This document shows positions 12,671 through 32,076 of a stretch of 33,586 nucleotides of DNA, in pieces (positions within the stretch are counted from its first letter, which is position 1; each line of letters opens with the position of its first letter). The notes under the pieces were generated by a model. The model did not search any database. It saw only the letters and a list, made by a program, of their open reading frames with translations, and was not told where the DNA came from. The translations under genes and the position numbers were made by a program. This DNA is from Parcubacteria group bacterium GW2011_GWB1_40_14 (GTDB lineage Bacteria > Patescibacteriota > Minisyncoccia > Terrybacterales > GWB1-40-14), in NCBI GenBank assembly GCA_000996085.1, contig LBYG01000015.1:4326-37911 (forward strand), written 5' to 3'.

Positions 12671-12717
12671 GTTTGGATTTTCTATACTTTATCGTAGTAT
12701 ATATTTGGAGACGGAAA

Positions 12718-12795: not shown

Positions 12796-12829
12796 CTCGT
12801 CACTCGTGAAGAGTGGCGAGTTTTGTTTT
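12796..12829 (+). terminator. Intrinsic terminator after tRNA-like A
   Basis: CTCGtCACTC-gtgaa-GAGTGgCGAG-TTTTgTTTT. Confidence 0.8.
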
Positions 12830-12884: not shown

Positions 12885-12892
12885 ATGGGTAT

Positions 12893-13036
12893 ATGCCAGG
12901 TAGTGAAAATTCGATCGTTTCGCCTATGGCGAAACAAAGAAATAATCGCACTTGGTATTTGAGATAAAGATAGTATATTTTATTAAAGTTAAGAAGAAAT
13001 TTGATAGATAAAAATCGAATTTCTACTACCTGGTAT
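12893..13036 (+). promoter_or_regulatory. Leader bounded by 23-nt inverted repeat whose right arm covers the antitoxin start codon
   Basis: 12893-12915 atgccaggtagtgaaaattcgat vs reverse complement of 13014-13036 ataccaggtagtagaaattcgat (2 mismatches). Confidence 0.8.
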
Positions 13037-13310
13037 GCCCAAAACTGTTATAAATATAAAAGTTGATAAGGAAGTTAAGGAAAAAGCTCGTACGCTAGCT
13101 GAAGCGTTGGGTCTTCCTTTGAGTACAATAGTGAACGCAAATCTTAAGGAATTCATTCGTAGTGGTGAGGCGACTTTTTCTATTGAGCCTAAGCTTCGGC
13201 CGAAAGTATGGGAAGAGTTGAAGAAAGCAAGCGCGGATTATCAAGGGAAAAAGAATATTTCCCGTGCTTTTGTAAACGTAAATGAGGCTCTCGACTATTT
13301 GAACAAATAA
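13035..13310 (+). CDS. RelB/DinJ family antitoxin
   Basis: MPKTVINIKVDKEVKEKARTLAEALGLPLSTIVNANLKEFIRSGEATFS. Confidence 0.85.
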   Translation: MPKTVINIKVDKEVKEKARTLAEALGLPLSTIVNANLKEFIRSGEATFSIEPKLRPKVWEELKKASADYQGKKNISRAFVNVNEALDYLNK

Positions 13311-13311
13311 T

Positions 13312-13572
13312 ATGAGTATTGTTTTCCACGATGGTTTTAGGAAAAAATATCGTAAATTGATACGCAGTGAGCAGAAAAAGGTGCAGCAGCGTCTGCGCCT
13401 TTTTATCGAAGATCCAAAAAACCCAATTCTTAATAATCACGAACTTATTGGTAAATATTCAGGTTATTATAGTATTAATATTACGGGTGATCTTCGGGCG
13501 TTGTATCAGATTATTGGAAAAAATGTTACGTTATTTATCACTATCGGGACGCATAGCCATCTTTACGAATAA
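13312..13572 (+). CDS. RelE/YafQ-family mRNA interferase toxin
   Basis: FHDGFRKKYRKLIRSEQKKVQQRLRLFIEDPKNPILNNHELIGKYSGYYSINITGDLRALYQI..VTLFITIGTHSHLY. Confidence 0.87.
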   Translation: MSIVFHDGFRKKYRKLIRSEQKKVQQRLRLFIEDPKNPILNNHELIGKYSGYYSINITGDLRALYQIIGKNVTLFITIGTHSHLYE

Positions 13573-13856: not shown

Positions 13857-14312
13857 ATGGAAGTAATAGTTCCTCAAGACCAGATAAAATATCCCGTATC
13901 TGTAGTTAAGAAAGGGGAGCGCGGTGAAAGTGTTTTAATTCAGCTGGGTACGTGGAATACGGAAGTCTTTAATAATTTAGAAGACGCCGTAAAAAAATAT
14001 CAAAGCGCCACAAGCAGCAAAAGACAAAGCGAAAAAATTGAAGAACTTATAATAGATGGCAGAGGAGGAGTTCTTTTTGTACAGAATGAAAATAGTGGTC
14101 GTCGAATTTTAGAAGCCCTTATTTGGGACCCCGTCCCAACCGGACAAAGTGAGAATTCTGTTCCGGTTACCGTGCAAGGCAGCTTCGTTTCACCTGGCTC
14201 TGCGCGTGAAATTTCTTTACAACTTCCCGGAACCGCCACAGCCAATGACCGCATTTTATACGAAAAACTCTACCGCGAAATTTTAAATTCCATAAAATTC
14301 ATAAAAAGATAG
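13857..14312 (+). CDS. Small secreted/membrane-associated hypothetical protein, 5' end possibly lost
   Basis: Open frame extends upstream of ATG 13857 (..GSTSGWKEQVAETSNISFRYPSDKMEVIVPQDQIKY) without a recognisable start. Confidence 0.55.
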   Translation: MEVIVPQDQIKYPVSVVKKGERGESVLIQLGTWNTEVFNNLEDAVKKYQSATSSKRQSEKIEELIIDGRGGVLFVQNENSGRRILEALIWDPVPTGQSENSVPVTVQGSFVSPGSAREISLQLPGTATANDRILYEKLYREILNSIKFIKR

Positions 14313-14464
14313 CTTAAACTTTTTAAGAATAACCAAACACCAAGATACAAGATACAGACAATTCGCTAACCCGCGAATCAATAATCAAACCCGTGTTTTA
14401 AATTTGGAATTTGAATATTGTAATTTGTCTGGTAATTGTCTCTTGTTTCTTGTATCTTCTAAGT

Positions 14465-15088
14465 ATGACCAAACTTCCTCCTCCAAAAATACTTATTTTT
14501 ATTATCGCCTTTGTCTTTTCGGTTATCATTGTTATAGGCGGTATATTTTGGTATATAAATAATAGGCGCGTTGATACTAATATTCCTCCTGTTTCTCAAC
14601 TTGAGCGTTCTCCGGAAGTGCCTGCAAACTGGAAACTTTTGGAAGCCAGACCCGAAGGTTATTGGCTCTATTATTCTCCTTCATGGATCATAGATTCAAG
14701 TTTAGAGGAAAGCACAGAATTAAAAGCTTTTTGGATTGGAGATTCTGCCTCACCCGATGGGCTCTATATTATAAGCGTGATAAAAGAACCGACGCGGGGA
14801 ACTTTGGAATATCTTGATACAAATTTTGCGAATGCTTTCAGGCAGCAAACCGTTCAAGATACACTAATAGAGGAAAAAGTTGGCGTGCAGGGGAGAGATG
14901 CTATTTCTCTTGAAGGTAAAATAACAAATGCGGAAACCAAAGAAGTAGTTAACGCTAATTTGCTTTTAATTTCTGCCAAAGACGGCAAACCCGCATACGC
15001 AATTTCCGCAGTTTTAAGAAATAATTCAACGTATGAAAAGTATTTGCAAGAAGTTCTTTTAATGACCCTATCGTTACGCTTCTTTTAA
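14465..15088 (+). CDS. Membrane-anchored hypothetical protein (single N-terminal TM)
   Basis: MTKLPPPKILIFIIAFVFSVIIVIGGIFWYI then soluble domain. Confidence 0.75.
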   Translation: MTKLPPPKILIFIIAFVFSVIIVIGGIFWYINNRRVDTNIPPVSQLERSPEVPANWKLLEARPEGYWLYYSPSWIIDSSLEESTELKAFWIGDSASPDGLYIISVIKEPTRGTLEYLDTNFANAFRQQTVQDTLIEEKVGVQGRDAISLEGKITNAETKEVVNANLLLISAKDGKPAYAISAVLRNNSTYEKYLQEVLLMTLSLRFF

Positions 15089-15281
15089 ATTTTTCTATAG
15101 AAAAATTTACACTGAGCCTGTCGAAGTGTTACGATATTATTGATTTTAAATATTTGAATTGAACCTTTAACTTTTGTCCGCCACCGATTTTATGGTCGCT
15201 TGCGACCAAATAAAAGCGGATCCGCCTCTGGCGGAAACTCTTGAACATTGACCTTAATTTTTTAATATTAACCTATAAAAT

Positions 15282-15965
15282 ATGTTTAATCTTCTCAACC
15301 ACATTCCATTTTTAAACCGCCGTCCGGTTTCAACCCGCGACAAGTTCATATTTGTAATAGGTCTTATTTTGGCCTTTCTCGTAATTCTTTTTACCCTTTT
15401 CGTTATAATGAGCAAGCAGGCTGTAGCACCCGCGCCTTCCGGTGAAGAGACTCAGCGAGGTTTTTCTTATGAAACAAAAACTGCACCTTGCGCAGATGAC
15501 CCACAAGTTCTTTGCGATAAAATTTTGCGGCCAGATTATAAATTTTCTGCTGTCGCTCCCAAAGACTGGACGGTTTCCCAACCAAATTCAGGTACGCTTA
15601 CTTCAAGTAAAGACGGTTTGGATTGTTCCGCGAGTTTAATTTTAGGTAGTAATGAAAACTACGTTTCCGCTTCAGGTTGGGTGGATATTTTAAATCCGCC
15701 CGGCAAAAAAAGTGCTTCGATAGATCAGATAACGGGTAGTGTAGTTAACGTTGGGCCGGAATTGTGGCCTGTGGCTGTTATGACAACAAAAGGAAAATTC
15801 GCGAATTTCAAAAAAGAAGCTTATATTCCTGTGGGGAATGTGGTATTTATCTTAACTTCAGAAATAAAAGGGTTGGTTGAACAGAATAAATTTACAGTCA
15901 ATCCGCAAAAAGTAGAATGCGATAAGGCTTTCGATGATTTGATAAATTCTATTAGAGTACGTTAA
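15282..15965 (+). CDS. Membrane-anchored hypothetical protein
   Basis: N-terminal TM helix FIFVIGLILAFLVILFTLFVIM; coherent 227-aa ORF. Confidence 0.75.
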   Translation: MFNLLNHIPFLNRRPVSTRDKFIFVIGLILAFLVILFTLFVIMSKQAVAPAPSGEETQRGFSYETKTAPCADDPQVLCDKILRPDYKFSAVAPKDWTVSQPNSGTLTSSKDGLDCSASLILGSNENYVSASGWVDILNPPGKKSASIDQITGSVVNVGPELWPVAVMTTKGKFANFKKEAYIPVGNVVFILTSEIKGLVEQNKFTVNPQKVECDKAFDDLINSIRVR

Positions 15966-16008
15966 TATTTTTGCCGCATGAAGGAATTATAAGTTATTTT
16001 TAAAACCC

Positions 16009-16704
16009 TTGATAGACATAAAATCTTTATTCATCAAAAAAAATAAGAACGGAACATTAAGGTGGGGTATAACAACGCTCCTCCTTTTTGTTTCTTTAAT
16101 ATTCGTTCAGCGCGTATTTTCTCCTCATTCCGACGTTTCATTAAACAAACCGCAGAGTGAGCAAGTTATAACTTTTTCTATTGAACCCGCCGGACCCGAT
16201 CCCGCCTCATACAGCACCTTTTTGGATTTCGGTAAAGGAAAATATTCTGTTTTTTGGATACATCCGCCCAACGAAGATTTAATTGTAGATACTATTCGTG
16301 TACGCAAGCAGGGCGTAAGCGATGAAGATATGCCTTATGCGTGGTTGCGCTTGAACGGCATTCGTTCGTACGTTCGTACTCCGTTCAGGGACAACCTGGC
16401 AATTTTTCATATTTTCCCTGAACCAAAACCGCCTGAAGGTACGTATGAAACATACACAAGCAAACAAGAAACTCAAAAGTTAACTTTAATTGGCGCGCCA
16501 AATAATTTTACTGTTTCTACAAAAAAAGATGTTTCTGTACAAATATATGGGCAATTTGGTTTGGATATTGCTCTGCGCGAGCAGATAAACGGTATTCGTT
16601 TTTGCGTGGAAGAAGTTTCAGGAACCATTGCATCAACCGGTCAAAAGGCATCAACTCAACTGGCTTCACCGCTTTGTTTCAACAAAATGGGCATTAAGGA
16701 ATAA
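16009..16704 (+). CDS. Membrane-anchored hypothetical protein
   Basis: N-terminal TM (LRWGITTLLLFVSLIFVQRVF), coherent 231-aa ORF. Confidence 0.7.
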   Translation: MIDIKSLFIKKNKNGTLRWGITTLLLFVSLIFVQRVFSPHSDVSLNKPQSEQVITFSIEPAGPDPASYSTFLDFGKGKYSVFWIHPPNEDLIVDTIRVRKQGVSDEDMPYAWLRLNGIRSYVRTPFRDNLAIFHIFPEPKPPEGTYETYTSKQETQKLTLIGAPNNFTVSTKKDVSVQIYGQFGLDIALREQINGIRFCVEEVSGTIASTGQKASTQLASPLCFNKMGIKE

Positions 16705-16999
16705 AAAATTTAGTTTTGATCATTATCAATCATTTAAATATTTAACCAATTTTCTAATACTTATTCGTGCGAATGTGCGAATTATTCTAAATTTTAGCAA
16801 TGTTCACATTCGCGCAACCCATACAAAGCATCGATAGACTTGTTCGCACGCCTGCCCGCCTCCGGAGAGCCTTTGGGGGATGCACTAGCACCATTCGCAG
16901 TTCATTTAGATGGCTTGTACATTTTTGTGTTTCGTTAGACTTATTCGTACGAATGTGCGAATATAAGGAGAGTTTATCAATTCATTACCCGCAAATTTT

Positions 17000-17260
17000 A
17001 TGAAAGAATTAGAAAAAATATTTAAAGCATTCGCTAATAAAAGGCGTTTGGCAATATTAGCCTATTTAAAGAGGAGCGGTGAAGCTACGGTAGGCGATAT
17101 AGCCGCGGAGATAAAATTGTCTTTTAAATCGACCTCAAAACATCTTTATGTCTTAGCCGCGGCCGATATTATAGAAAAAGACCAACGCGGTCCCCAAGTA
17201 TTTTATCAGCTTACCCCCAACCCAAGATCCAGCGTTCGTCAGCTTATTGATTTAATATAA
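17000..17260 (+). CDS. ArsR-type winged-helix transcriptional regulator
   Basis: IFKAFANKRRLAILAYLKRSGEATVGDIAAEIKLSFKSTSKHLYVLAAADIIEKDQRGPQVFYQL. Confidence 0.88.
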   Translation: MKELEKIFKAFANKRRLAILAYLKRSGEATVGDIAAEIKLSFKSTSKHLYVLAAADIIEKDQRGPQVFYQLTPNPRSSVRQLIDLI

Positions 17261-17343
17261 TGTTTCCAGAAGAGCATATTTTTGTATGCGCATGGCTTGG
17301 TGTATAATACATTATGTAACAATTTATATATTTATTTTTATTA

Positions 17344-20300
17344 TGCTGAAAATTAAATCATTTTTTCAAACTATTTTGCACGCTTTAACTGTTATTTCTC
17401 TCGTGTTATATCAGTTGAGTTTCGGTCTTATTTATCCCGGCACAGCTTATGCGGCTTCGCCGGTTTTTGTTAATAACGGAACGGCGAACTCGGGCAATGT
17501 TTATCCGAGTAGCCAAAACGTTTTAGGTTTGAATATATCACTTCCTCCTATCGATTCCGATACTTTTATTGATGGCGATGGAACAGTTGTTAGCACCGGA
17601 ACGCTGGACACAACGTGGGATACCGATGGCATTCAGACCTATAATTCAAGCGCCGGGTCGGATATCGTTAAAGCGGTCCTTTTTGATTCAGTGAATAGTA
17701 AGTTTTATGTTGCCGGTTACCAACAGACAAATGGATATGATGCCGTAGTTTTGCGTTACAATGCCGACGGTTCGCTCGATACCACTTGGGATAGTGATGG
17801 TATTGCAACATTTAATTCTGGCGGGACGCAGATCGATGAAGCATTAGCCATCGCATTTGATTCTGCGAATAATAAATTATACGTTGGTGGTCAGCAAGGA
17901 ACGAACGGCGAGGATATCCTTATCATGCGCTATAACGCAGACGGTTCGCTTGATACTTCGTGGGATGGCGATGGTATTGTGACTCATAATTCGAGCGGAA
18001 CGCAAAGCGATATTGTGCAGGCCCTTGTGTTGGATTCCGGAAATAGTAAACTTTATGCCGCAGGAGTATACGGAACAGGCGGCTTAGATTTCGCAGTACT
18101 GCGGTACAATTTAAACGGCGCGCTTGATACGTCTTGGGACTCCGATGGCATCGCGACCTATAACTCCGGAGGGTCGCAGATCGATATGGCTAATGCCATC
18201 GCATTCGATTCCGGGAACAATAAACTCTACGTTGCAGGCGAACAGGGAACGAATGGGAAGGACTTCGCCGTTTTACGTTACGATTCGACGGGCGCGCTTG
18301 ATACGTCTTGGGACTCTGACGGCATCCAGACGTTCAACTCCGGTAGCACTCAGGAAGACATCGCAAACGGTCTTGCCTTTGACTCCGCCAACAATAAGCT
18401 TTATGTTATCGGCCAGCAGGCTACGAACGGGATAGATTTCACTATTTTACGTTACGGTTCGACGGGCGCGCTTGATACGTCTTGGGACTCTGACGGCATC
18501 CAGACGTTCAACTCCGGCGGAGTGCAGCAGGATACCGGTTATGCTATTGCATTCGATTCCGCAAACAGCAAGGTCTATGTGCTGGGAGTACAGGGAACAA
18601 ATGGAAATGATATTCTTGTTCTTCGGTACACGACCGGCGGGGCGCTAGATAGCACGTGGGATTCCGACGGCATTCAGTCGTATAATTCTGGCAGCTCACA
18701 GGGCGATGCCGCATTGGCAGGTTATTTGGACGCCGCGAATAATAAGCTCTATGCAGCCGGATACGTTGGGGTTAACACGCAGGACTTTGTTGTTTTGAGA
18801 TATTTTATCAATAACGCCGGGAATCAGGAAACTATAGCGGCCGGCACGGCCTTGTCAAAGCTCGCAATGCCGGCAGGAACAGCATTGTGTGGTAACACTA
18901 ACGGAACCACCGCGCCGGCGAATATCGTGTACGAGCCGGATGGAGACTGCAGAGATGGTTTAGATGTGAAGTCTTTGGTGGATTCAGTGGGTAACGTCGG
19001 GACGTATTCTACTTCTCTTGCTTTAGATACCAGCGGATTTCCTGTCGTATCTTATTATGATGAAACGAATGGAAATCTTAAAATACTTCATTGTAACGAC
19101 ACCGATTGCGTTGGAGGAAATGAGAGCATAGAGGCCGTTGATACAATCGGCGACGTCGGCAGATACCCTTCCTTGAGGCTTGATTCTTTGGGATATCCGG
19201 TTGTCAGTTATTTTGATGGCACAAATGGCAATCTCAAGATTTTACACTGCAACGACGCAAACTGTGCGGGCGGAAATGAAAATATCTCTACCGTCGATTC
19301 AACGGGAATTGTTGGATACTATACCTCTTTAGCGCTTGATGAGAATGGTTATCCCGTAGTGGGCTATTACGATTTTACAAATCAGGACTTCAAGATACTT
19401 CATTGCAACGATGCTAATTGCGCTGGCGGTGATGAGAGCATCGAAACCGTGGACAGCATCGGAAACATTGGATACGACCAGAAATCATTGGCCTTGGATA
19501 ACGCCAATCCTAAAAGGCCGGTTGTTAGTTATCACGACGATACGAATGGTGATCTCAAAATCCTTCATTGCAACGACGCAAACTGTGCGGGTGGAGATGA
19601 GAGTATCGTTGCAGTCGATACGACGGGAGATGTGGGCAATAATTCATCGCTCGTTCTTGATTCTTCCGGCTTCCCGGTTGTTGCGTACGATGACGTTACT
19701 AACACCAATCTCAAAATCCTTCATTGTAACGACGCAAACTGTGCGGGCGGAAATGAAAATATAGTTGTTGTTGATGGCGACCCCGGCAGCTTGCCGCATC
19801 CTTCCATCGCCTTGGATGCATCCGCTTTTCCCGTTGTGAGTTATCGCGCTCCCTTCAGCAATCTTAAGATTCTCCATTGTAGTGATGTTAACTGTGCCGG
19901 CGGCAGCATTGTAGAGGTTAGCGATGGAGATAGCGGCGGATATTATTCATCTTTGGCTCTTGACGGTTTTGGATTTCCAGTTGTGAGTTCTTATGACGTT
20001 ATAAATACGGGTTTAAGGGTTCTTCATTGCGGTGACGTAAATTGCGCGGCAGACGGGCGGACAGTTGTCTTGGGCACTGATACCGGAGCGACGAATGATT
20101 TAGCGGCAACGGCGTCGTTGATCGCTTTCCGCGACACGAGCAGTAACGGTACATGGGCATCGGGCGAGGATCTCTACCTCGATGTTGACGATAGCGGCTG
20201 GTACAACCGCGACGAGCTTGACGCGATAACGGTGCGCAATGCCGGCACGGCCATAGATACTATCGATATCGCTGTTGTTAAAATGTGGTTGGAATCGAGT

Positions 20301-21866
20301 TTAAACAATACTTTTGGAACCGATGATGTTCTTGTTGATAGTATTTGCGGTTGGGACGGTATAGATGATTGGCAGTGTGGAGATAATACTAGCGTGACCA
20401 TAACAGGTGCTGGTTCAATATCGCGTATTTATATCACATATGATGTTGCGGGTTCCAATAGTGTTACATTTGGTAATACTATACAATTACGTGTTGCAAC
20501 CCTATCTGATTCTGGCACCACAGGCGCTTTTGATACCGGCGATACGGGAATATTTTTCTCTAAAGCCGGTGCGGCAAATACCGGAAATCACGATGGGCCG
20601 ACAAGCGCAATCACAAATGACAGCACCAATACTATAGCCGTTTTATCTGGTAGTACGGCGACTCCAACGCAAAACGGCGTTCCAATAATCGGCGGTGTTC
20701 CGGAAACACCGTTGATTACGAATACAGAAACTAAAACTATAGATACTGACACAGGCGGTTCGGTTACGGAAACCGCTGCAAATGATGGCAGTACCGCAAC
20801 AGTGTCTGTTGAGCCGGAAACCACAAGCGCTGACACTTCATTTACAGTAGAAACGTATATTGCCTCAGAAGTATTTAACGATAACCCCCTGCCTTCCGGT
20901 TTAGATGCGGGCACCAAAGCTGTTTATGATATTGTCGCAACCGCAGGAGGAGAGAATGTTGAAACATTTTCTAAACCTCTTGAATTAACTTTTTCATATC
21001 TTGAAAATAATTTGTCTTCCGGTGTTAATGAGGGCGATTTACGCCTAGCCGTGTTTGATGAAGTAGAAAGTAATTGGTACGTACTTGAAGATGCCGTTGT
21101 TAATACTTCAACAAATACTATAAGTTATGTTTCAGACCACCTTACCCGTTTTGCTATAGTGCGCCCAGCCGACATAATAAGACCTTCTTTGCCCACTAAT
21201 GTTGCAGCCGTCGCTGTTTCCGGTGGCGCTAAGTTATCATGGCAAAATCCTCCTACAGATTTTCATCATGTGCGTATAACGCGAGGTTTAACTGCTCAAG
21301 ATGCAGGAACTCTTATTGCCGGTGACGTGAGAGGAACATCTTACGAGGATATATCTGTTTCAAATGAGCCGGTTTATTATAATCTTGTGAGTGTTGATTT
21401 GGCCGGCAACAGATCCGGACCGGCTATGGTTTTGTTCGATCCGTCTTTGTCATCTTATAGTGATGGCGATCTTTTAAGAGGCGAGAGCACTTCAGAGGTT
21501 TGGATAATACATAACTCTGGCGGCAAAATGTTCAAGAGACATGTTTTGTTCTCAAACTTTGATACTTTTTATCCTCATTTAGCCCTATTCTGGAGCAACG
21601 TGAAAGTGGTTTCGGATTCCACGGTTGCGGTTTACAGTTTGTCTGCCTGGATCCGTCTTGATGGAACTTCTGCTGTTTACGAAATTAACGATGACAACAC
21701 TAAGCATTGGATAACCTGCGCAGACGACAGTGTTATCGGCCAGGATTGCGCCAATGAATGGATTTTATCCGGCCGCGACTTTGACGGCGTTTATATAGTA
21801 AATTCTACAGAGTTTAACTCTTACGTAACCGGTCCGACCGTCATAATGCCGGATGTTGAGAATTAG
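17344..21866 (+). CDS. Giant surface protein with delta-60-type repeats, a second NCAGG-containing repeat array and shared C-terminal domain
   Basis: Signal peptide at MLKIKSFFQTILHALTVISLVLYQLSFGLIYPGTAYA; repeats LDTSWDSDGIQTFNSGG...NNKLYVxGxQGTNGxDFxxLRY and VVSYYDxTNGNLKILHCNDANCAGG. Confidence 0.9.
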
Positions 21867-21882
21867 TTAGGATTGGCTTGAC

Positions 21883-22160
21883 CCCGCACCTATTTAAGAC
21901 CATGTATTACGTATATATTTTGAAAAGCGAGACAAGAGAAACGCATTATATAGGCTGGACAATAAATTTAGTTAGAAGATTAAAGGAGCATAATTCAGGA
22001 TTATCATCTCACACTAAGAAATATTTACCTTGGAAATTGGTTTATTTTGAAGGCTACGCCAATGAAGAGGATGCAAAAGAAAGAGAAAAACAACTTAAGC
22101 AATTCGGTAAGGCTTATACTCAACTCAAACTAAGAATTGAGCGTAGCCTTCAGTCTTAAA
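21883..22160. mobile_element. Inverted-repeat-bounded element carrying a GIY-YIG nuclease
   Basis: CACCTATTTAAGAC left and GTCTTAAATAGGTG right (14-bp perfect IR) flank the ORF. Confidence 0.65.
21902..22159 (+). CDS. GIY-YIG domain endonuclease (URI-type small protein)
   Basis: MYYVYILKSETRETHYIGWTINLVRRLKEHNSGLSSHTKKYLPWKLVYFEGYANEEDAKEREKQLK. Confidence 0.92.
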   Translation: MYYVYILKSETRETHYIGWTINLVRRLKEHNSGLSSHTKKYLPWKLVYFEGYANEEDAKEREKQLKQFGKAYTQLKLRIERSLQS

Positions 22161-22175
22161 TAGGTGTTCGCTGGG

Positions 22176-22316
22176 TTGACCCCGCACCTATCTAGCATCG
22201 AAGGATCCTGTTTAGGGATCCTTCCGAAGGTTTAGGAAAAAGACATTTAATGCCACTAACAATAATTTAGTGTTTAACGGTTCTTCGCAAGAAATAAATG
22301 CTAGATAGGTGCGGGG
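22176..22316. repeat. ORF-less sibling of the GIY-YIG element, 20-bp terminal inverted repeats
   Basis: ACCCCGCACCTATCTAGCAT ... ATGCTAGATAGGTGCGGGGT. Confidence 0.75.
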
Positions 22317-22344
22317 TTGACAAAATGACCCTATCTGCTATACT
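22317..22344 (+). promoter_or_regulatory. Promoter TTGACA-16-TATACT for sRNA-C
   Basis: Consensus -35 placed at the edge of the inverted repeat; predicted +1 22351. Confidence 0.75.
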
Positions 22345-22350
22345 GTAGCC

Positions 22351-22420
22351 ATAGTGAGTGTTCTCGAAAGAGGACTCTTTCTAGGTAGGCGAAAGACCTT
22401 GGGGTTTTCCAAGGTTTTTT
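22351..22420 (+). ncRNA. sRNA-C: third member of the bipartite sRNA family, no cognate tRNA-like gene found in the window
   Basis: 14-nt ATAGTGAGTGTTCT, C-GAAAGA-GGAC-TCTTTC-T hairpin, 9-nt AGGTAGGCG, terminator CCTTGG-ggtttt-CCAAGG-TTTTTT. Confidence 0.7.
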
Positions 22421-22492
22421 GCTATTTTAGAGAACGCAATGCTCCCTAAAATAGCCCTGAGCATGTCGAATGGGCTATTTATGGATCAAATC

Positions 22493-22520
22493 TTGACAGA
22501 AGCATATTATGGAGTATAAT
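22493..22520 (+). promoter_or_regulatory. Consensus promoter TTGACA-16-TATAAT for sRNA-B
   Basis: Exact hexamers; predicted +1 22527, first base of the antisense arm. Confidence 0.85.
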
Positions 22521-22526
22521 GAAAAT

Positions 22527-22602
22527 ACTTGATAGGTAGCCGAAACCATTACGGTTTCTGCGATCACTAAAAACAGCGCATCTCTTTGACGCGCTGTTTT
22601 TA
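22527..22602 (+). ncRNA. sRNA-B: bipartite antisense small RNA
   Basis: ACTTGATAGGTAGC is the reverse complement of 22655-22668; GCGATCACT is the reverse complement of 22669-22677; terminator AAAAACAGCGC..GCGCTGTTTTT. Confidence 0.8.
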
Positions 22603-22629
22603 TTTGTTAAAATATTTTTGGAGACGGAA

Positions 22630-22700
22630 GGGGACGTAGCGTAGTGGTAACGCAGCTACCTATCAAGTAGTGATCGCGGGTTCGATTCCCGCCGTCTCCA
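22630..22700 (+). tRNA. tRNA-like gene B, anticodon ATC, no encoded CCA, discriminator A
   Basis: Same backbone as tRNA-like A; anticodon arm GCTAC-CTATCAA-GTAGT; differs from A only between the D-arm and T-arm. Confidence 0.7.
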
Positions 22701-22703
22701 TGT

Positions 22704-22733
22704 AAAAATCCTAACTTATTGTTGGGATTTTTT
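22704..22733 (+). terminator. Intrinsic terminator after tRNA-like B
   Basis: AAAAATCCtAAC-ttatt-GTTgGGATTTTTT. Confidence 0.8.
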
Positions 22734-22885
22734 GTTATTTGCGCCTCTTTTCGTTTTAGTATGTTATGCGAGATTTTGGGCTTTGCGGTAATAATTTTCT
22801 ATGACAGTAATTATGTGAGCGACATTTATGAAGCTGTGTTTTGGATCTTATAGTTTATAATTTACGCGGTTACTTTTTTGAGCGG

Positions 22886-22995
22886 TTTCTGAGGTTGTTT
22901 TGGCATGGTTCCAGCTCTAATTTTATAAATTAGAGCTGGACAAAACAACCGAAGCCTCGGAGTCCTGCGCTGGCGGGACGAGAATGAGCGAGAAA
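22886..22995. repeat. Nested modular hairpin (GGTTGTTTTG..CAAAACAACC enclosing AGCTCTAATTT palindrome)
   Basis: Outer arms 22893-22902 / 22941-22950; relative at 2300-2450. Confidence 0.8.
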
Positions 22996-23250
22996 AATGA
23001 TAAGCGCGGAAATTATATTTCTATAGACGCCTTCCGACTTGTTAATCACTCGTGTTATAATATTTATTACCGGGAGGGCTGGCACTCACTTAATACCTAG
23101 TATTGGAGTAAAACCCCCTCCTGGTCTTGAGAGAAGTTACAAACACCAAGAAACAAGTTACAGATAACGTGTTTGGTTATTGATTATTGTAAGGTGTTTG
23201 GTAATTGTTTCTTGTATCTTGGTTATTAGAACTGCGAGAGATAAGATTTT

Positions 23251-25332
23251 ATGCTAAATATTTTGAAACGACGCAAGATACTTTCTTTGCTGTTCCCACT
23301 GATTGTTTGTGGGTTTTTTGTTATTTATCCTCCAAGCGCAAACGCAACGGTCCTCGGAGATTTTTACGGAACACCGCTTGATTTTGCGCCCAAATATAGT
23401 TTCAGTAATGTTTTGCCGGTTACGTGGGGTGCTGCGGTAGGGGATACGGTTAATTTCAATGTGGACAGATCTTACGACGCGGCAGGCAGAACACAACTTA
23501 CCGCAACATTAAAAATTGTCGGCGCGCACTCATATTTTTATGTTGAAGATGCTTATTTTTCTTCACTAAGTGCAGGGGATCAAAGTTCATTTTTGGCTTC
23601 GCTTCAAACTTTAGCAAATGAATTTGATAATGTTATTTACCCGAAAGAAATTGAGTTTTTCGGAACAATGTGGGAACCGGGAATTGATAATGATTCTCAT
23701 ATTACGATATTGGTAAGTAAGCTCATAGATACTGCCGGAGGATATTTCCGTACGGATGATGAATATCCCCGCACACAGGTTCCTTCAAGCAATGAACGGG
23801 AAATGGTATTTATTAATGCCACGCAAATTTTTAATTTTACCAAGGTCAGGAATTTTTTGGCTCATGAATTTCAGCATCTAATAACTTTTTATCAAAAAGA
23901 TAAGCTGCGTAATGCGGATGACGAAGTTTGGCTCAACGAAGCGCGTTCAGAATACGCGCCGACTATTCTTGGCTATAACAACACATGGTCCGGTTCTTAT
24001 TTGCAGTCGCGTGCTTTAGCTTTTTTGGCAAAACCAACGGACAGTTTGACTGAATGGACCAACCAGACGGCTGACTATGCCGCAGTTATACTTTTTGCGC
24101 ATTACTTAGCCGATCAGTATAGTCCGAGCATTTTGAGCAGATCCCTACAAAGGGTCGAGGGAGGCATTGCCAGTATAAACGCCGCATTGGTCGAACTTAA
24201 CCAAACTGATACATTCAGCGATATTGTTTTAAATTGGCAAATAGCTAATTACATAAATTCTACGCAAGCAGGAGAAAGGTATGGGTATAAAAATATAAAT
24301 TTAAACGCCACCAACTTCAAAGTTACTGCGCCTACAAATTCCTATTCATTGACCGGTTCAGCAAGCGTAAATGTTGGGTTGGGCACAAAAGATTGGGCTG
24401 GCTCATGGATAAATATTTCAGGAGGCGGTTCAAAGACACTTAAATTGGGATTTACGCCTGCCAATTCAAGCGATACTTACAAGAACGCTGTCTTATTAAA
24501 TAAAAATAATATTTATGAAGTGCGTAAATTGAACACAGCGCAGGAGCAAAAAGAGGTTTTGGTAGATGGTTTAGGCGGCGCAGTAGCCAACGTAATTTTT
24601 GTGCCTATTGGCCAGGTTAAAACAACAAATTTCACTGACAATGAACCGTCCAGAACTTATAATCTTTCCATGTCGTTAATTGATCCTGCCGCCGCGGCTT
24701 TTTCTGTAAGCTCTGTTTCTCCAAAAGTGATTTATATAGATGGCGGTCAAACTATTACGGTAAACGGGTCGGGTTTCAAAAGCGGTCTCACGCTTAAAGT
24801 TAACGGCACTTTAGTTAGTGCTGTATTTGTTAACAGTTCTACGTTTACTTTTGCTGCGCCCAAAAGCATAATTGGAAATGCCTGTTTGGATATAACAAAT
24901 AGCGATGGCGCGATAATTCAAAATTGTACACTGCTTAAATATATTTCATATTCAGATGGAACATTGATCCGTGCAGTAGACGACACAAAGGTCTGGATAA
25001 TTAAAGGTTCATGGCGTCGGCACATAGTAAACCCGACAGTACTCACTTTTTATCCTCATCTTGGATTTAGTTCTGTACGCGATGTTGAACAAGCCGAAGT
25101 TGATGCATTTAAGTTAAGCGCATGGACGCGCGTTGAGTTAACCCAAGACCCGGTAACTTGGCGCGTGTATGAAATAAATGGCGACGCAACTCGTCATTGG
25201 ATAACATGCGCTGACCCCGATAATTGCGCCTCAACTTGGTTGGCCAGAGGCGGAAACCCAGATGGTATCTATACAATAAACGAGCAGGAAATGAATTATT
25301 ACACTGAAGGAGCGCGCGTTTTTCTTCAGTAG
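23251..25332 (+). CDS. Secreted zinc metallopeptidase with IPT/TIG domain and shared surface C-terminal domain
   Basis: Signal peptide; FLAHEFQHLITFYQKD..EVWLNEARSEY (HExxH with downstream E); SVSSVSPKVIYIDGGQTITVNGSGF; C-term YEINGDATRHWITCADPDNC. Confidence 0.87.
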   Translation: MLNILKRRKILSLLFPLIVCGFFVIYPPSANATVLGDFYGTPLDFAPKYSFSNVLPVTWGAAVGDTVNFNVDRSYDAAGRTQLTATLKIVGAHSYFYVEDAYFSSLSAGDQSSFLASLQTLANEFDNVIYPKEIEFFGTMWEPGIDNDSHITILVSKLIDTAGGYFRTDDEYPRTQVPSSNEREMVFINATQIFNFTKVRNFLAHEFQHLITFYQKDKLRNADDEVWLNEARSEYAPTILGYNNTWSGSYLQSRALAFLAKPTDSLTEWTNQTADYAAVILFAHYLADQYSPSILSRSLQRVEGGIASINAALVELNQTDTFSDIVLNWQIANYINSTQAGERYGYKNINLNATNFKVTAPTNSYSLTGSASVNVGLGTKDWAGSWINISGGGSKTLKLGFTPANSSDTYKNAVLLNKNNIYEVRKLNTAQEQKEVLVDGLGGAVANVIFVPIGQVKTTNFTDNEPSRTYNLSMSLIDPAAAAFSVSSVSPKVIYIDGGQTITVNGSGFKSGLTLKVNGTLVSAVFVNSSTFTFAAPKSIIGNACLDITNSDGAIIQNCTLLKYISYSDGTLIRAVDDTKVWIIKGSWRRHIVNPTVLTFYPHLGFSSVRDVEQAEVDAFKLSAWTRVELTQDPVTWRVYEINGDATRHWITCADPDNCASTWLARGGNPDGIYTINEQEMNYYTEGARVFLQ

Positions 25333-25464
25333 AAGAAAAACTCAAAGATACAAAAATCAAGAAACAAGATACAGATAGCGTGTTTGGTTATTGAAAATTG
25401 GAATTTGAATTTGTTTGGTGTTTGTTTCTTGTAACTTGTATCTTAGTTAATGTATCTTATAGTT

Positions 25465-26385
25465 ATGAACATTACTGATTTCAAAACCGATGTTAAATTG
25501 GCTCCTTACACCTCAATCGGTGTCGGTGGTCCTGCCGATTATTTTTATGAGGCAAAGACTGCGGATGAATTGAAAGATGCGGTATTGACCGCAAAAGAAA
25601 AAAATATCCCGTATATTATTTTTGGTGGCGGTACAAACGTTTTGGTTTCAGATGACGGTTTTCGCGGTTTGGTCATTGTGGCGCGCAATAATAATTATGA
25701 GATCAATGGAGAGAATATTGATGCGGGTGCCGGTATTGTATTGGGAGTTCTTTTAGGCGTTTCGGTAAAAGCAGGTCTTCAGGGATTGGAATGGTCGGCA
25801 GGCCTTCCGGGCTCTCTTGGCGGAGCGATTTACGGAAATGCCGGAACGTTCGGTAAAAGTATCGGTCAATTTATTGAAGAAGTTACTGTTCTTGAGCCCT
25901 CAGGCGATATTAGAAAATATACTCCTGACGAATGCGGATTTAGATATAGGCAAAGTAATTTTCAAAATATGCCGGGAACAGTAATTATTTCCGCGAAGCT
26001 TAAATTACAACAGGGGAATGTTGAACGACTAAAGGAAGAAATAAAAAAGAATGCTTTGTGGCGCGCGCAGAATCATCCTCCATATAAATCTTGTGGTTGT
26101 GTTTTTCGCAACGCTACTTTTACTAAAGAAGCACGTTTGCCGCAGGATGAAAATGAACCGGTTCAATGGTTTGATAAAGTTCCCGTAGGCTGGCTGATCG
26201 ATCAAGCCGGCTTGAAGGGTAAGAAATTAGGCGGCTTTACTGTATCAGATGTTCACGGTAATTTTTTGATAAACGACGGAACAGGAACAGCAGAGCAACT
26301 TGAACAGCTTATTTCTGAAATTAAAAAAGATATCAAAGATAAATTTAATTTAGATCTTGAAGAAGAAGTAAGAAGGGTGGGGTAA
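25465..26385 (+). CDS. murB: UDP-N-acetylmuramate dehydrogenase
   Basis: TSIGVGGPADYF, GGGTNVLVSDDGF, GLQGLEWSAGLPGSLGGAIYGNAG, RYRQSNFQ. Confidence 0.96.
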   Translation: MNITDFKTDVKLAPYTSIGVGGPADYFYEAKTADELKDAVLTAKEKNIPYIIFGGGTNVLVSDDGFRGLVIVARNNNYEINGENIDAGAGIVLGVLLGVSVKAGLQGLEWSAGLPGSLGGAIYGNAGTFGKSIGQFIEEVTVLEPSGDIRKYTPDECGFRYRQSNFQNMPGTVIISAKLKLQQGNVERLKEEIKKNALWRAQNHPPYKSCGCVFRNATFTKEARLPQDENEPVQWFDKVPVGWLIDQAGLKGKKLGGFTVSDVHGNFLINDGTGTAEQLEQLISEIKKDIKDKFNLDLEEEVRRVG

Positions 26386-26562
26386 GCGCAAGATTTCGTG
26401 TCTCGCGATTACGCTTACGCATTTGGCAAAATTTATTTCGCACTGCATGAATTTACGGAGCGGGCCGCTCTACGGTGCGTTTCCTTTCCGTAAATTCATT
26501 TGCGCTTAATATGATTTTGCTGCAAATGCTTTCGCTAGGTCGCTTAGACACGAAATCTTGCT
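26386..26562. repeat. Long bulged inverted repeat (about 175 nt)
   Basis: AAGATTTCGTGTCT/AGACACGAAATCTT, GCATTTggCAAAAT/ATTTTGctgCAAATGC, ATGAATTTACGGA/TCCGTAAATTCAT. Confidence 0.9.
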
Positions 26563-26569
26563 TATTTTA

Positions 26570-26757
26570 TATTGGAAGTAGTATTGTGCATAACTACACA
26601 CTGGAAAATTTTTTTACTATGTGTAGAATTGGAAGTACAGAGTTCTTTTAGTCTTCTAGCTTTAAAAGAGTTTAGTAACTCTTCTTTGGGCTTGGGAACC
26701 CGATCTTTTAGATTGGGAACATCTAACAGCACCCCCACATGTATATGTGGGGATTTT
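26570..26757 (+). ncRNA. Candidate structured RNA upstream of hpf/raiA ending in an intrinsic terminator
   Basis: CTACACA..TGTGTAG, CTTTTA..TAAAAG, AAGAGTTtagtAACTCTT, CCCGATCttttaGATtGGG and CCCCACATgtatATGTGGGG-ATTTTG. Confidence 0.4.
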
Positions 26758-26962
26758 GCTTATTTGACTGCGTTTGGCGAATTCAAATTAGTCCTGAGCT
26801 TGCTTGCAGTGAGCCTGTCGAATCTGTCGAAGGGCTACATTACAAAATCAAAGTCCCGTACCCTGCCCAAGGCTCTGGTGCGGGGCTATTTATATATAAA
26901 ATGCTATAATAAATAAAGTAAGGTTACTTTTAATTTTTCGCTTTACGCTTTAAACTTCTAAT

Positions 26963-27358
26963 ATGAGACTCATAATCAAAGCCACAAATTTTTCATTGAC
27001 CCCTTCTCTTTCCGACTTTATTGAAAAGAAGATAGGCGGCGAAATTAATAGTCTTTTAGCCTCAAAATTCGGATCCTCTAAGATCAAGAAAGGTAAAGAA
27101 GCTCTTGAAGTTAAAGTTGAGGTGGCTCGGACAACACGACATCATAAAAAAGGTGATATTTTTCGCGCCGAAGCTACAATAAGGCTTCCCGGTAAAAAAA
27201 CTTTACGTGCTGAAGCTGAAGAATGGGATGTTCGTGTAGCGTTGGATCGCGTACGCGACGAATTATTTATGGAGATCAGTAAGTGGAAGCAAAAGAGATT
27301 AGCAGCTGTCAGGAAGGGCGGACGTAAATTTAAGAATAGCCTGAAAGGACTTAATTAG
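26963..27358 (+). CDS. hpf: Ribosome hibernation promoting factor / RaiA family
   Basis: MRLIIKATNFSLTPSLSDFIEKKIGG...ALEVKVEVARTTRHHKKGDIFRAEATIRLPGKKTLRAEAEEWDVRVALDRVRDELFMEISKWKQK. Confidence 0.92.
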   Translation: MRLIIKATNFSLTPSLSDFIEKKIGGEINSLLASKFGSSKIKKGKEALEVKVEVARTTRHHKKGDIFRAEATIRLPGKKTLRAEAEEWDVRVALDRVRDELFMEISKWKQKRLAAVRKGGRKFKNSLKGLN

Positions 27359-27693
27359 TATTTGATGGTTTGCTTGTTCAGCCTACCCAGCTCTAATTTT
27401 AAAAATTTTATACTTATATTGTTTGCCGAGTTTTCAGATCTATAAGAATATAAAATTAGGACCGGGTGGAGCTGGATTGAAAAAAACGAGATGTATGTTA
27501 AGGTGAAAATATAGTAATTTTATATTTGTTATTAAAAGAAAGAGAATTTAAAAAAAATAGCGGTTAGGATAGGTTTTATTAAAAAAATAGTACTAAACCC
27601 TAAACCCTCTACCCTAAACTCCAAAATATGAATCCCGTTAGAGACAGCTTAGCGGGAAATTATAAGTAGTTTAGTGATATTTATAGATAGTAA

Positions 27694-28260
27694 TTTTTTT
27701 GCAGGATCAAACGCAATATTACGGAAGACGAAGAGCTTGCGGCATTTGAGGTCGCGTTACGCGATGCCGGTATTGCTAAATATAATCTTGTACACGTCTC
27801 ATCCATTTTTCCTCCGGGGTGCAGACGCATTTCACGAGCAAAGGGTCTTGAATATTTATCTGCGGGAGAAATTGTTTATTGTGTAATGGCGCGCATAGCT
27901 ACCAATGAGCCCAATAGGCAACTTTCTGCGGCAATAGGTGTCGCTTTGCCAGCGGACGAAAGGCAATACGGTTATTTATCCGAACATCATTCCTATGGCC
28001 AGACTGGTGAAAAAGCGGGGGAATACGCTGAAGATTTGGCCGCTTCAATGTTGGCTTCAACGTTAGGCATTAAATTTGATCCGGATGAAGCGTGGGATTC
28101 CCGCCGTCAGGCTTTTAGACTTTCGGGTAAAATTGTTCGCACGTCCAATATTGTTCAATCTGCCCGTTCAGACTCAAAAGGCAAATGGACATGTGCCATA
28201 GCTGCCGCGGTTTTAATTTTACCCGACAGCGTTTTGATCCACGATAACGGTAACGCATAA
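27694..28260 (+). CDS. pdaD: Pyruvoyl-dependent arginine decarboxylase, start codon unclear
   Basis: [31 protein letters not shown]...[29 protein letters not shown]; frame open from 27694 without ATG before the catalytic Ser region. Confidence 0.88.
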
Positions 28261-28285
28261 AAAATTAAATAAATTTTAATATTTT

Positions 28286-29122
28286 ATGATACGGCAAACT
28301 TTTCTTGGAATTGAAGAGCCATCATACGAAAAGGCGCGGGCGGTTATTATCCCCGTGCCTTATGACGTTATGGCTTCATATGGAACCGGTGCCAGATTTG
28401 GTCCCGACGCCATTATCCGTGCTTCACAACAGGTTGAAACTTATGATGAAGAATTGGAAAAAGATCTTGACCATTTGCCTTTGTTTACTCATGAACCGTT
28501 AGCTCCGGACAAATCTTCTGCTGAAGCCATGATGGATAAGCTCGAAGCAATAGTTAAAGAGGTAGACGAAGACGGTAAAATACCCGTTGTTTTAGGGGGA
28601 GACCATTCGCTTTCAATTGCGCCAAGCCGGTATTTTGCAAAAAAATATCCCGGTGTTGGAATTTTGCATCTTGATGCGCATAGCGATTTGCGTACAATTT
28701 GGGAAGAAAGCCCATTTAGTCACGCAAGTTCTATGCGTCACGCATATAATTTGGGCGCAAATATGGTTCAGGTAGGTATCCGTTCAATGCCCAAAGAAGT
28801 TGTGGATGAATGTAAAGAACATCGTAAAGTATTTTTAGCTCCAGATGTTCCGGTAGAAGAAATACTCGCAGCCCTACCCGATAAAGTTTATATTTCTCTT
28901 GATATTGATGTTTTGGACCCCTCATTAATTCCTGCAACAGGGACCCCTGAGCCGGGTGGTATCGGTTGGTATGATCTGTTAAAGCTTTTGCGCGCTGTAG
29001 CCACAAAAAAACAAGTTTTGGGTTTTGATCTGATGGAATTGTCTCCTGTGCCGGGATTAATTCATCCGGAATACGCCGCGGCGCGTCTTTTGACCAAATT
29101 TTTCGGTTATTTATTGGCTTAA
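28286..29122 (+). CDS. speB: Agmatinase (arginase/ureohydrolase family)
   Basis: GGDHSLS, GILHLDAHSDLR, SLDIDVLDPSLIPATGTPEPGG. Confidence 0.95.
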   Translation: MIRQTFLGIEEPSYEKARAVIIPVPYDVMASYGTGARFGPDAIIRASQQVETYDEELEKDLDHLPLFTHEPLAPDKSSAEAMMDKLEAIVKEVDEDGKIPVVLGGDHSLSIAPSRYFAKKYPGVGILHLDAHSDLRTIWEESPFSHASSMRHAYNLGANMVQVGIRSMPKEVVDECKEHRKVFLAPDVPVEEILAALPDKVYISLDIDVLDPSLIPATGTPEPGGIGWYDLLKLLRAVATKKQVLGFDLMELSPVPGLIHPEYAAARLLTKFFGYLLA

Positions 29123-29283
29123 TTATCGTTTCAGGGTAATACTATTTTAGTTTGCGGTCTTTTTTATGGCCGTTTTCTTTTTGGGATAATTCTGCTATTG
29201 TTTATTTACGATTAATTTGATTCCCGACGCTGCGGTCGGGATGCGCATTTTCGCATCCACTCGCTAGCGCTCGCGGGCGAAAA

Positions 29284-32076
29284 ATGGCATTTAAACTCGA
29301 AAATTTATTCGGAGACGCAAACGCCAAAGAAGTAGATAAATTAAGTCTTATTGTTGAATTGGCAAATGCTAAGGAAGAAGAAATGAAGGCGCTTAGCAAT
29401 GACGGTTTGCCGACAAAGACAGAAGAGTTCAAAAAACGTTTGAAAGAGGGCGCAACTCTGGACGATATTTTGCCGGAGGCTTTTGCGTTGGCGCGTGAAG
29501 CCGGCCGAAGAACTTTGGGACAGCGGCATTATGATGTTCAGCTTATGGGCGGCATGGTTTTGCATAGCGGTAAAATAGGAGAAATGAGAACCGGTGAAGG
29601 AAAAACTTTAGCGGCAACCGCGCCCGCATATCTTAACGCGTTATCCGGTGAAGGTGTTCATGTCGTAACCGTAAATGATTATTTGGCTAAACGTGACACA
29701 GTATGGATGGGACAAATTTATAGTGCATTGGGTTTAACTGTGTCATGCGTTACTCAGGAAGGTTCATATTTATACGACGCATCTTTTTCCGCCAAAGGCG
29801 GATCCGCCTCTGGCGGAAATGTAACCATAGAAGAAGAAGATAAAGAACGGGATACAAAAGGCGCATTCGAAGTAGTTGCGGATTTTTTGCGTCCGGTTTC
29901 AAAAAAAGAAGCTTATGCGGCTGATATAACATACGGCACTAATAACGAATACGGATTTGATTATTTGCGGGTGGTTTTGTCTGAAGCAGAAATGTCCCAG
30001 CGCGGTCACAATTTCGCTATTGTCGATGAAGTAGACTCTATTTTAATAGATGAAGCACGTACTCCGCTTATTATTTCTTCGCCCGATACCCAAGCCTCAA
30101 AAAAATATGAAGAATTTTCCCGTTTAGTTCCGCGTCTTAACGAGAACACAGATTATAACTTGGATGAGAAAACTAAATCCGTTTTACTTACTGAAGAAGG
30201 CATTTCGAAAGTTGAAAAACTTCTTGGTATAGCTAATCTGTATGCGGATTCTGATCCGAGGATTGTCCATCATTTGGAACAAGCTTTACGCGCTCATGTT
30301 TTTTATAAGCTGGACAGGGATTATGTCGTAAAGGACGGCGAGATAGTTATTGTAGATGAATTTACCGGTCGCCTAATGCCGGGACGCCGTTGGTCTGAAG
30401 GGTTGCATCAGGCGGTTGAGGCAAAGGAAGGGGTACGCATACAAAGTGAGTCCCGCACTTTGGCCACAATAACTTTTCAGAATTACTTCCGTATGTACAA
30501 AAAGCTTTCCGGTATGACCGGAACAGCTGTTACCAATGCCGAAGAGTTCCATAAGGTTTATAAATTGGAGGTTGTCGTTGTTCCGACAGCAAAGCCAATG
30601 GTAAGGAAAGACCAGGCGGATCTTATATATAAAAACGAAGAAGCAAAATATAACGCGGTAGTAGAAGAGATAAAAGAGAGACATTCAACCGGTCAGCCGG
30701 TCCTTGTCGGTACGGTTTCTATTCAAAAAAATGAACTTTTGTCAGCTCTGCTTAAACGCGATGGCGTACCTCATCAGGTTTTGAACGCAAAAAATCACGA
30801 ACAAGAAGGCGCGATAATTGCGCAGGCCGGAAGATTGAGCGGAGTAACAATTGCGACCAATATGGCAGGACGCGGTGTTGATATTATTTTAGGCGGAAAT
30901 CCTAAAGTTGAAGAAGATGCCCAAAAAATCCGTGAGCTGGGAGGATTGCACGTTATTGGAACTGAGCGTCATGAGGCTCGCAGGATCGATAATCAGTTGC
31001 GCGGTCGTGCCGGACGACAGGGGGATCCGGGTTCGTCAAGATTTTTTGTTTCTTTGCAGGATGATCTAATGCGTATTTTCGGTGGAGACCAATTGGGCGG
31101 TGTTATGCAAAAGCTCGGCGTTCCCGACGATATGCCCATTGAAAGCAAAATTGTTTCCAAAGCAATTGAAGGCGCGCAAGCCAGGATAGAGGGCTTTAAT
31201 TTTGATTCAAGAAAACACTTGCTTGAATATGACGATGTAGTAAATAAGCACAGAAACGCGATATATACGCGGCGCAGGCATACGCTCAAAGGTACCAAAG
31301 ATGAATTAACCGAGCGGATGAAAGAACTTATTGCCGAGGAAATCGAAGCTATTGTGGATGCGCATACCCCCGGGGATTATTGGAACGATTGGAGCATAGA
31401 AGAATTAGTTGAGAATGTTAAAACTATCAGTCCTTTGCCGGATAATTTTCACGCGGAGCTTCTTGAGGTTGCTCAGAAGGGTAAGGTTTTTACTGAAGAT
31501 AAAGAAGAAAAAGAAGATAAAGATTCTTTTACTAATGACCCGCAAGACAGGAGAGAAGCTGCAAGAAAATTTGTTCTTTATACAATATATAAATATTTGG
31601 ATGATAAAATAAAACAATTCGGTGATGTTGCCACTGATGTTTTTCGTTTTGTTTTACTGCGTTCAATGGATGGCGCATGGATGGATCACTTAGATGCAAT
31701 GGAAGCTTTACGCGATTCAGTAAGTTTGCGTGCTTATGGCCAGCGAGATCCCTTAGTTGAATATAAGAATGAAGGCAGAAGGTTGTTTGATGAACTCATG
31801 AAGGTTATGCGCGCCCAAGCCGTCCGTATGGTTTTTAGGGTAGAGCCGAGAGTCCAGGTTGCCCAGCCGGCAAATATACAAACCGTTCATCAATCCGGCA
31901 GTCTTTTGGATAAAAATTCTCATGCTGGTCATAACCATACACAACCCGTTGTAAGCGGTCAGCAGCACGTCGGAAGAAATGATCCGTGTCCTTGCGGAGC
32001 GGTGAATCCACAGACAGGAGAAGTATACAAGTATAAGAAATGTGGATTGATTAACGCCCCGCACCACCGCAGATAA
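29284..32076 (+). CDS. secA: Preprotein translocase subunit SecA
   Basis: MRTGEGKTLAATAPAYLNAL, VNDYLAKRD, VDEVDSILIDEARTPLIIS, GRAGRQGDPGSSRFFVSLQDDLMRIF, C-terminal SEC-C CPCG..KKC. Confidence 0.98.
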   Translation: MAFKLENLFGDANAKEVDKLSLIVELANAKEEEMKALSNDGLPTKTEEFKKRLKEGATLDDILPEAFALAREAGRRTLGQRHYDVQLMGGMVLHSGKIGEMRTGEGKTLAATAPAYLNALSGEGVHVVTVNDYLAKRDTVWMGQIYSALGLTVSCVTQEGSYLYDASFSAKGGSASGGNVTIEEEDKERDTKGAFEVVADFLRPVSKKEAYAADITYGTNNEYGFDYLRVVLSEAEMSQRGHNFAIVDEVDSILIDEARTPLIISSPDTQASKKYEEFSRLVPRLNENTDYNLDEKTKSVLLTEEGISKVEKLLGIANLYADSDPRIVHHLEQALRAHVFYKLDRDYVVKDGEIVIVDEFTGRLMPGRRWSEGLHQAVEAKEGVRIQSESRTLATITFQNYFRMYKKLSGMTGTAVTNAEEFHKVYKLEVVVVPTAKPMVRKDQADLIYKNEEAKYNAVVEEIKERHSTGQPVLVGTVSIQKNELLSALLKRDGVPHQVLNAKNHEQEGAIIAQAGRLSGVTIATNMAGRGVDIILGGNPKVEEDAQKIRELGGLHVIGTERHEARRIDNQLRGRAGRQGDPGSSRFFVSLQDDLMRIFGGDQLGGVMQKLGVPDDMPIESKIVSKAIEGAQARIEGFNFDSRKHLLEYDDVVNKHRNAIYTRRRHTLKGTKDELTERMKELIAEEIEAIVDAHTPGDYWNDWSIEELVENVKTISPLPDNFHAELLEVAQKGKVFTEDKEEKEDKDSFTNDPQDRREAARKFVLYTIYKYLDDKIKQFGDVATDVFRFVLLRSMDGAWMDHLDAMEALRDSVSLRAYGQRDPLVEYKNEGRRLFDELMKVMRAQAVRMVFRVEPRVQVAQPANIQTVHQSGSLLDKNSHAGHNHTQPVVSGQQHVGRNDPCPCGAVNPQTGEVYKYKKCGLINAPHHRR

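Follow-up and report, generated by a model that had tools for sequence, protein, structure and literature searches.

The window analysed here, a 33,586-nucleotide stretch of contig C15 from the genome of Parcubacteria group bacterium GW2011_GWB1_40_14 (G000; 944 kb in 38 contigs, with 54 tRNA matches), carries two loci of identical plan. Locus A (12595–12788, from sRNA-A arm 1 to the end of tRNA-A) lies 9.9 kb upstream of locus B, and each combines a predicted small RNA (sRNA), in which two short arms flank a hairpin, with a tRNA gene. The promoters and terminators of both loci were identified as consensus matches only. The parts of locus B are:

22493–22520 (+): sRNA-B promoter, TTGACA-16-TATAAT, 12/12 consensus
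22527–22540 (+): sRNA-B arm 1, ACTTGATAGGTAGC, starting at the predicted transcription start site (TSS, ~22527); pairs with 22655–22668
22542–22558 (+): sRNA-B hairpin, GAAACC-ATTAC-GGTTTC, 6 bp; same in A bar one loop base
22560–22568 (+): sRNA-B arm 2, GCGATCACT; pairs with 22669–22677
22569–22601 (+): sRNA-B terminator hairpin and T-run, overlapping the -35 of the tRNA-B promoter
22586–22613 (+): tRNA-B candidate promoter, TTGACG-16-TAAAAT, 10/12, with TG before the -10; consensus match only
22620–22629 (+): tRNA-B leader, GGAGACGGAA, a copy of the 5' acceptor strand; perfectly complementary to the 3' acceptor CGTCTCC
22630–22700 (+): tRNA-B, with Ala acceptor identity (G2-C71, G3:U70, G4-C69, A73) and anticodon AUC (Asp)
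22655–22677 (+): sRNA-B target in tRNA-B, spanning the entire anticodon stem-loop and the V loop and reaching 2 nt into the T stem
22704–22732 (+): tRNA-B terminator

The predicted length of sRNA-B is ~75–80 nt, and a gap of ~20 nt separates its terminator from the tRNA-B leader. Locus A repeats this plan:

12561–12588 (+): sRNA-A promoter, 12/12 consensus
12595–12608 (+): sRNA-A arm 1; 13/14 pair with 12743–12756
12610–12626 (+): sRNA-A hairpin
12628–12636 (+): sRNA-A arm 2; pairs with 12757–12765
12637–12670 (+): sRNA-A terminator
12707–12717 (+): tRNA-A leader, GGAGACGGAAA
12718–12788 (+): tRNA-A, body as in tRNA-B, anticodon GUC (Asp)
12743–12765 (+): sRNA-A target in tRNA-A
12796–12820 (+): tRNA-A terminator

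Each sRNA sits immediately upstream of its tRNA on the same strand, and for tRNA-A we found only a weak promoter candidate (8/12), as would fit a single read-through transcript in which pairing controls termination or folding in cis. We consider this arrangement very improbable, given the strong terminator hairpin between sRNA and tRNA, the separate 10/12 promoter of tRNA-B, and the location of the 23-nt target outside the terminator.

Complementarity and compensated divergence

A first-pass annotation made from the letters alone had described the two sRNA-B arms as perfect complements of a 'tRNA-like segment'. We rechecked the coordinates and found that arm 1 is the exact reverse complement of 22655–22668 and arm 2 that of 22669–22677, and that these 14 + 9 nt cover the 23-nt target without a gap, as claimed. 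The segment itself belongs to a complete cloverleaf tRNA, as does its counterpart in locus A (ARAGORN; Rfam scores of 69 and 71 bits, 69 for tRNA-B), and the target, which runs from tRNA nucleotide 27 to 50, takes in the entire anticodon stem-loop, all 4 nt of the variable loop and the first two bases of the T stem.

The order of the arms, which that annotation had not stated, is permuted in the manner of a padlock: arm 1, at the 5' end of the sRNA, is complementary to the 5' section of the target and arm 2 to the 3' section, whereas a contiguous antisense would show the opposite order. As a result, the 5' terminus of the sRNA meets the 3' terminus of arm 2 in mid-target, and the sRNA hairpin joins the outer ends of the target, which adjoin at the base of the anticodon stem in the folded tRNA. 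This geometry suggests a four-way junction in which two intermolecular helices would take the place of the tRNA anticodon arm. In a chance scan of 1.16 Mb (G000 and G001, the one comparison genome of the same genus) covering 4084 promoter-like sites, loci A and B, with 22 and 25 paired nt, were the top two matches to a permuted 'promoter-arm-hairpin-arm' pattern, and the next match had 19.

Between the two loci the target differs at 8/23 positions and the arms at 7/23, and all 7 arm changes fall in the 8 target columns and run in the compensating direction, in agreement with the earlier reading. The hypergeometric probability of this coincidence is 3.3e-5 on position alone, and lower with nucleotide identity counted; only the 5'-terminal A of sRNA-A, which faces C in tRNA-A, breaks the pattern. 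The near-identity of the backbones was likewise confirmed, with tRNA bodies matching at 48/48 positions and the sRNA hairpins differing by one loop base. Divergence is thus concentrated in the target (8/23 vs 0/48 in the tRNA body; Fisher 4.6e-5), and the spacer between terminator and leader has diverged and aligns poorly.

Matching arms and targets could also have been produced with no selection on pairing, by DNA template switching or gene conversion that homogenised inverted repeats, leaving the tRNAs as passive extra copies. The repeats lie ~90–150 nt apart, which suits such events, and the two loci offer a single contrast, with no homologue in which to test independence. We nevertheless judge this improbable: the permuted order demands a separate event per arm per locus, the matches extend no further than the predicted TSS and the terminator, and promoter, hairpin, terminator and tRNA body have been kept while the spacer has not. 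The C-terminal regions of the upstream surface-protein genes share 68% nucleotide identity, with 18/42 four-fold sites identical, so neutral sequence would be near saturation if the modules are equally old. If the modules date from the duplication of these surface genes, the tRNA body would have been frozen by selection while target and arms drifted together.

Cofolding, in an energy model that does not score the permuted complex, gave a ddG of -14.9 kcal/mol for sRNA-B with tRNA-B and -9.6 kcal/mol for sRNA-A with tRNA-A, as against -0.4 kcal/mol for sRNA-B with tRNA-A and 0 for sRNA-A with tRNA-B; the genuine tRNA-Asp gave 0 with either sRNA. The two pairs are therefore predicted to be strictly orthogonal. 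Arm duplexes amount to -21.9/-13.5 kcal/mol in B (sum -35.4) and -23.1/-15.5 kcal/mol in A (sum -38.6), and opening the anticodon arm and V loop costs 11.6–14.5 kcal/mol, which is below these energies. Cofolding also predicts pairing between the sRNA hairpin loop and the tRNA D arm; random hairpins equalled it in 26/1000 and 89/1000 trials, and we therefore do not claim this contact. Selection on base pairing, as proposed in the first-pass annotation, is supported by the 7 compensating changes, the frozen backbones, the diverged spacer and the cognate-only cofolding, all within a single evolutionary contrast between two loci of one genome. We regard the pairing of arms and target as well supported at the sequence level.

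Complementarity is symmetric and the sRNA promoter is strong, so the sRNA might instead be the active molecule, acting elsewhere, with its cognate tRNA as sponge or antidote. Outside the sRNA loci, however, we found no further stretch of at least 13 nt complementary to the arms of either sRNA in ~755 kb (~80%) of G000. The ordinary tRNA-Asp shows no cofold interaction, and a sponge would have no need of an intact tRNA with Ala identity. We think a sponge or antidote role improbable.

Acceptor identity, anticodon and leader of the tRNAs

In bacteria, the acceptor-branch determinants of Ala identity are G2-C71, G3:U70, G4-C69 and A73, and the anticodon is no determinant (PMC9976931). All of these acceptor elements are present in both tRNA-A and tRNA-B. 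Among the 95 tRNAs of G000 and G001, the combination of G3:U70 and A73 is confined to tRNA-Ala and these two, and the bodies closest to theirs are those of tRNA-Ala. The E. coli core determinant G20 is U in both, as it also is in the CGC and UGC tRNA-Ala of G000 itself. The NGC anticodon of tRNA-Ala is absent; tRNA-A carries GUC and tRNA-B AUC, both Asp. Position 73 is A in both, and an ordinary tRNA-Asp(GUC) with G73 is encoded separately in G000 (L009:1885–1961). The anticodon loops are canonical (CU[G/A]UCAA). Decoding efficiency is uncertain in view of the unusual A34 of tRNA-B and of a U31.C39 mismatch in tRNA-A. Searches with patterns for this chimera returned only these two genes in 380 genomes of the phylum and in 364 of the class, and 0 matches in IMG/VR.

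Each tRNA leader is a duplicate of the 5' acceptor strand in which position 3 is A, not G, and it is fully complementary to the 3' acceptor strand. With this leader of 10–11 nt included, the predicted minimum free energy structure at both loci is a rod (-34.0/-34.1 kcal/mol) in place of the cloverleaf (-26.9/-28.5 kcal/mol), and maturation of the tRNA may therefore be regulated or poor. Both loci have kept the leader but not the spacer, so the leader may act as a maturation switch.

The leader also bears on a different role for the sRNA, namely action on the pre-tRNA, by shifting the balance between rod and cloverleaf or by guiding RNase III or RNase P, with the tRNA serving as a regulated non-ribosomal Ala donor or a signalling tRNA. 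Its presence in both loci, the predicted advantage of the rod (5.6–7.1 kcal/mol), and an anticodon arm that drifts freely apart from pairing, as expected if decoding is irrelevant, all fit. Against this stand canonical anticodon loops that in both tRNAs read Asp codons, and among the selected neighbours checked at the loci we found no aminoacyl-transferase. We consider a processing role unlikely.

Neighbouring elements and searches for homologues

The window is syntenic with G001 over 13857–32076 (G001:C8:2328–18087). Locus B is nested between an sRNA 'C' and a structured RNA 'D', both of which also occur in G001 with identical cores; in the syntenic slot between these conserved flanking elements, the module is absent from G001.

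22317–22344: promoter of sRNA 'C'; RNA at ~22351–22425 (G001 counterpart L099:8932–9025)
~23068–23126: structured RNA 'D' (G001 counterpart L099:9270–9330)

sRNA 'C' has the plan of sRNA-A and sRNA-B (arm, 6-bp hairpin, arm, terminator), and 'D' lies directly upstream of the surface-protein gene 23251–25332. In both species the arms of 'C', AGTGAGTG and CTAGGTA (8 and 7 nt), match CACTCACT and TACCTAG of 'D' in permuted order, leaving a gap of 3 nt. This match is within noise by length and shows neither cofold gain nor covariation; we therefore treat it as a lead only, possibly a cousin of the A/B module.

A C-terminal domain (GDLL...NFDTFYPHL...YEINDDNTKHWITC) is common to three large secreted-type proteins (7958–12277, 17286–21866 and 23251–25332). 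Two of these, encoded directly upstream of loci A and B, are rich in Asp (9.2 and 9.7%). A small two-gene operon (13035–13572) with a YafQ/ParE-like toxin (PF15738) follows directly after locus A, where the synteny with G001 has its edge. An inverted repeat at ~12890–13037 (ATGCCAGGTAGTnGAAAATTCGAT / ATCGAATTTCTACTACCTGGTAT), whose end recurs in contig C5 (L142), is possibly a miniature mobile element. Between a surface-protein gene and sRNA 'C' lies an ORF with a GIY-YIG domain (21878–22159; PF01541) flanked by short repeats GACCCCGCACCTAT; a related ORF occurs elsewhere in G001 (L099:2814–3065). The gene at 4756–5142 encodes a protein of the 23S rRNA-intervening sequence (IVP) family (PF05635).

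BLAST with a 227-nt query against 55 relatives returned, besides A and B, only ordinary tRNAs and matches to tRNA 3' ends. The sRNA hairpin pattern had 7 matches in IMG/VR and 37 in GTDB, which we judged to be chance because none came with a tRNA and matching arms. An sRNA covariance model run on 384 genomes of the class recovered A, B, a minus-strand echo inside B and a weak match in one further genome (G227) that had no tRNA. A tRNA D-arm pattern found only unrelated viral tRNAs in IMG/VR, phage and plasmid collections yielded no homologue, and against Rfam 15 the sRNAs matched no family above gathering, with tRNA matches only.

Known systems and the proposed module

Type I toxin-antitoxin systems resemble these loci in having a small antisense RNA with a strong promoter beside its target, and in forming insulated paralogous pairs. 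Their target is the mRNA of a toxic peptide, whereas that of the module is a tRNA; the module contains no ORF, and its arms are permuted and split by a hairpin. We rejected membership on the basis of the tRNA target and the lack of any other complementary stretch in the ~755 kb searched.

The CreT toxin of CreTA likewise affects tRNA availability as RNA only (PMC8501985); it works via rare codons placed in tandem within a mini-ORF, and a CRISPR effector represses it (PMC8501985). In the module, by contrast, the tRNA would be the effector, bound by direct antisense pairing, and we noticed no CRISPR repeat at loci A and B. Streptomyces tRNA-ProX is likewise a naturally occurring bacterial tRNA with an anticodon at odds with its acceptor identity (PMC10365949); it has Pro identity, Ala, Asn or Thr anticodons and a position beside ProRSx (PMC10365949). 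The module differs in its Ala identity, Asp anticodon and dedicated antisense RNA. Its Ala-type body, and the absence of a synthetase among the neighbouring ORFs scanned, led us to reject membership.

Box C/D and H/ACA guide RNAs carry two antisense elements split by a hairpin and have targets in tRNA or rRNA; the module sRNA, with two antisense elements around a hairpin and a tRNA target, is similar. An H/ACA pocket binds the 5' side of its target with the 3' arm and the 3' side with the 5' arm, leaving a UN unpaired between them. The arm order of the module is the opposite, and its 23 bp are gapless with no unpaired target base. Topology and motifs stand against C/D, H/ACA and RNase P guide readings, and by eye we saw no C/D or ACA boxes. 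We know of no natural sRNA that is dedicated to, adjacent to and co-evolving with the anticodon arm of one tRNA, and a limited literature search found none.

We propose that each locus is a self-contained module of two RNAs and no protein, in which the antisense RNA would mask a potentially mistranslating Ala-tRNA(Asp), either as a toxin-antitoxin-like pair or as a switchable mistranslation device. The anatomy, complementarity, compensation, predicted orthogonality and Ala acceptor elements of this proposal were read from the DNA; we infer that the RNAs are transcribed and pair in the cell, that the tRNA is alanylated, mistranslates and is toxic, and that it can be released. The Ala-type tRNA, if it is made, if it is charged by AlaRS, which disregards the anticodon, and if the ribosome accepts it, would place alanine at Asp codons. 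The sRNA, expressed from its consensus promoter, would unzip and cover the anticodon arm and variable loop of its tRNA with its two arms while its hairpin bridges the base of the anticodon stem in a four-way-junction or padlock geometry; with the anticodon arm covered, the tRNA would be unable to decode. A stable tRNA would thus be restrained by its cognate antisense RNA, on the assumption that the tRNA outlasts the sRNA, and co-drift of arms and target would insulate each pair from its paralogue, as in toxin-antitoxin families. Ala-tRNA(Asp) might be harmful or useful under stress, and its restraint by a strongly expressed, sequence-specific antisense RNA is the simplest account in which every part has a use. 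In E. coli, AlaRS errors are reported to be poorly tolerated (PMC9976931), so an unrestrained module tRNA could be costly. Our confidence in this proposal falls slightly short of even.

The loci look like a previously undescribed lock-and-key RNA system without a protein. More tentatively, and with doubt outweighing confidence, they may represent a new class of RNA-only addiction or regulated-mistranslation modules, in which padlock antisense RNAs silence chimeric tRNAs and compensated drift of the anticodon arm yields orthogonal pairs. If the proposal is true, a minimal-genome lineage would possess a toxin-antitoxin-like or mistranslation switch made of RNA alone, and its modules would readily supply orthogonal antisense/tRNA pairs with which to control translation. 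Programmed Asp-to-Ala mistranslation in bacteria becomes directly testable.
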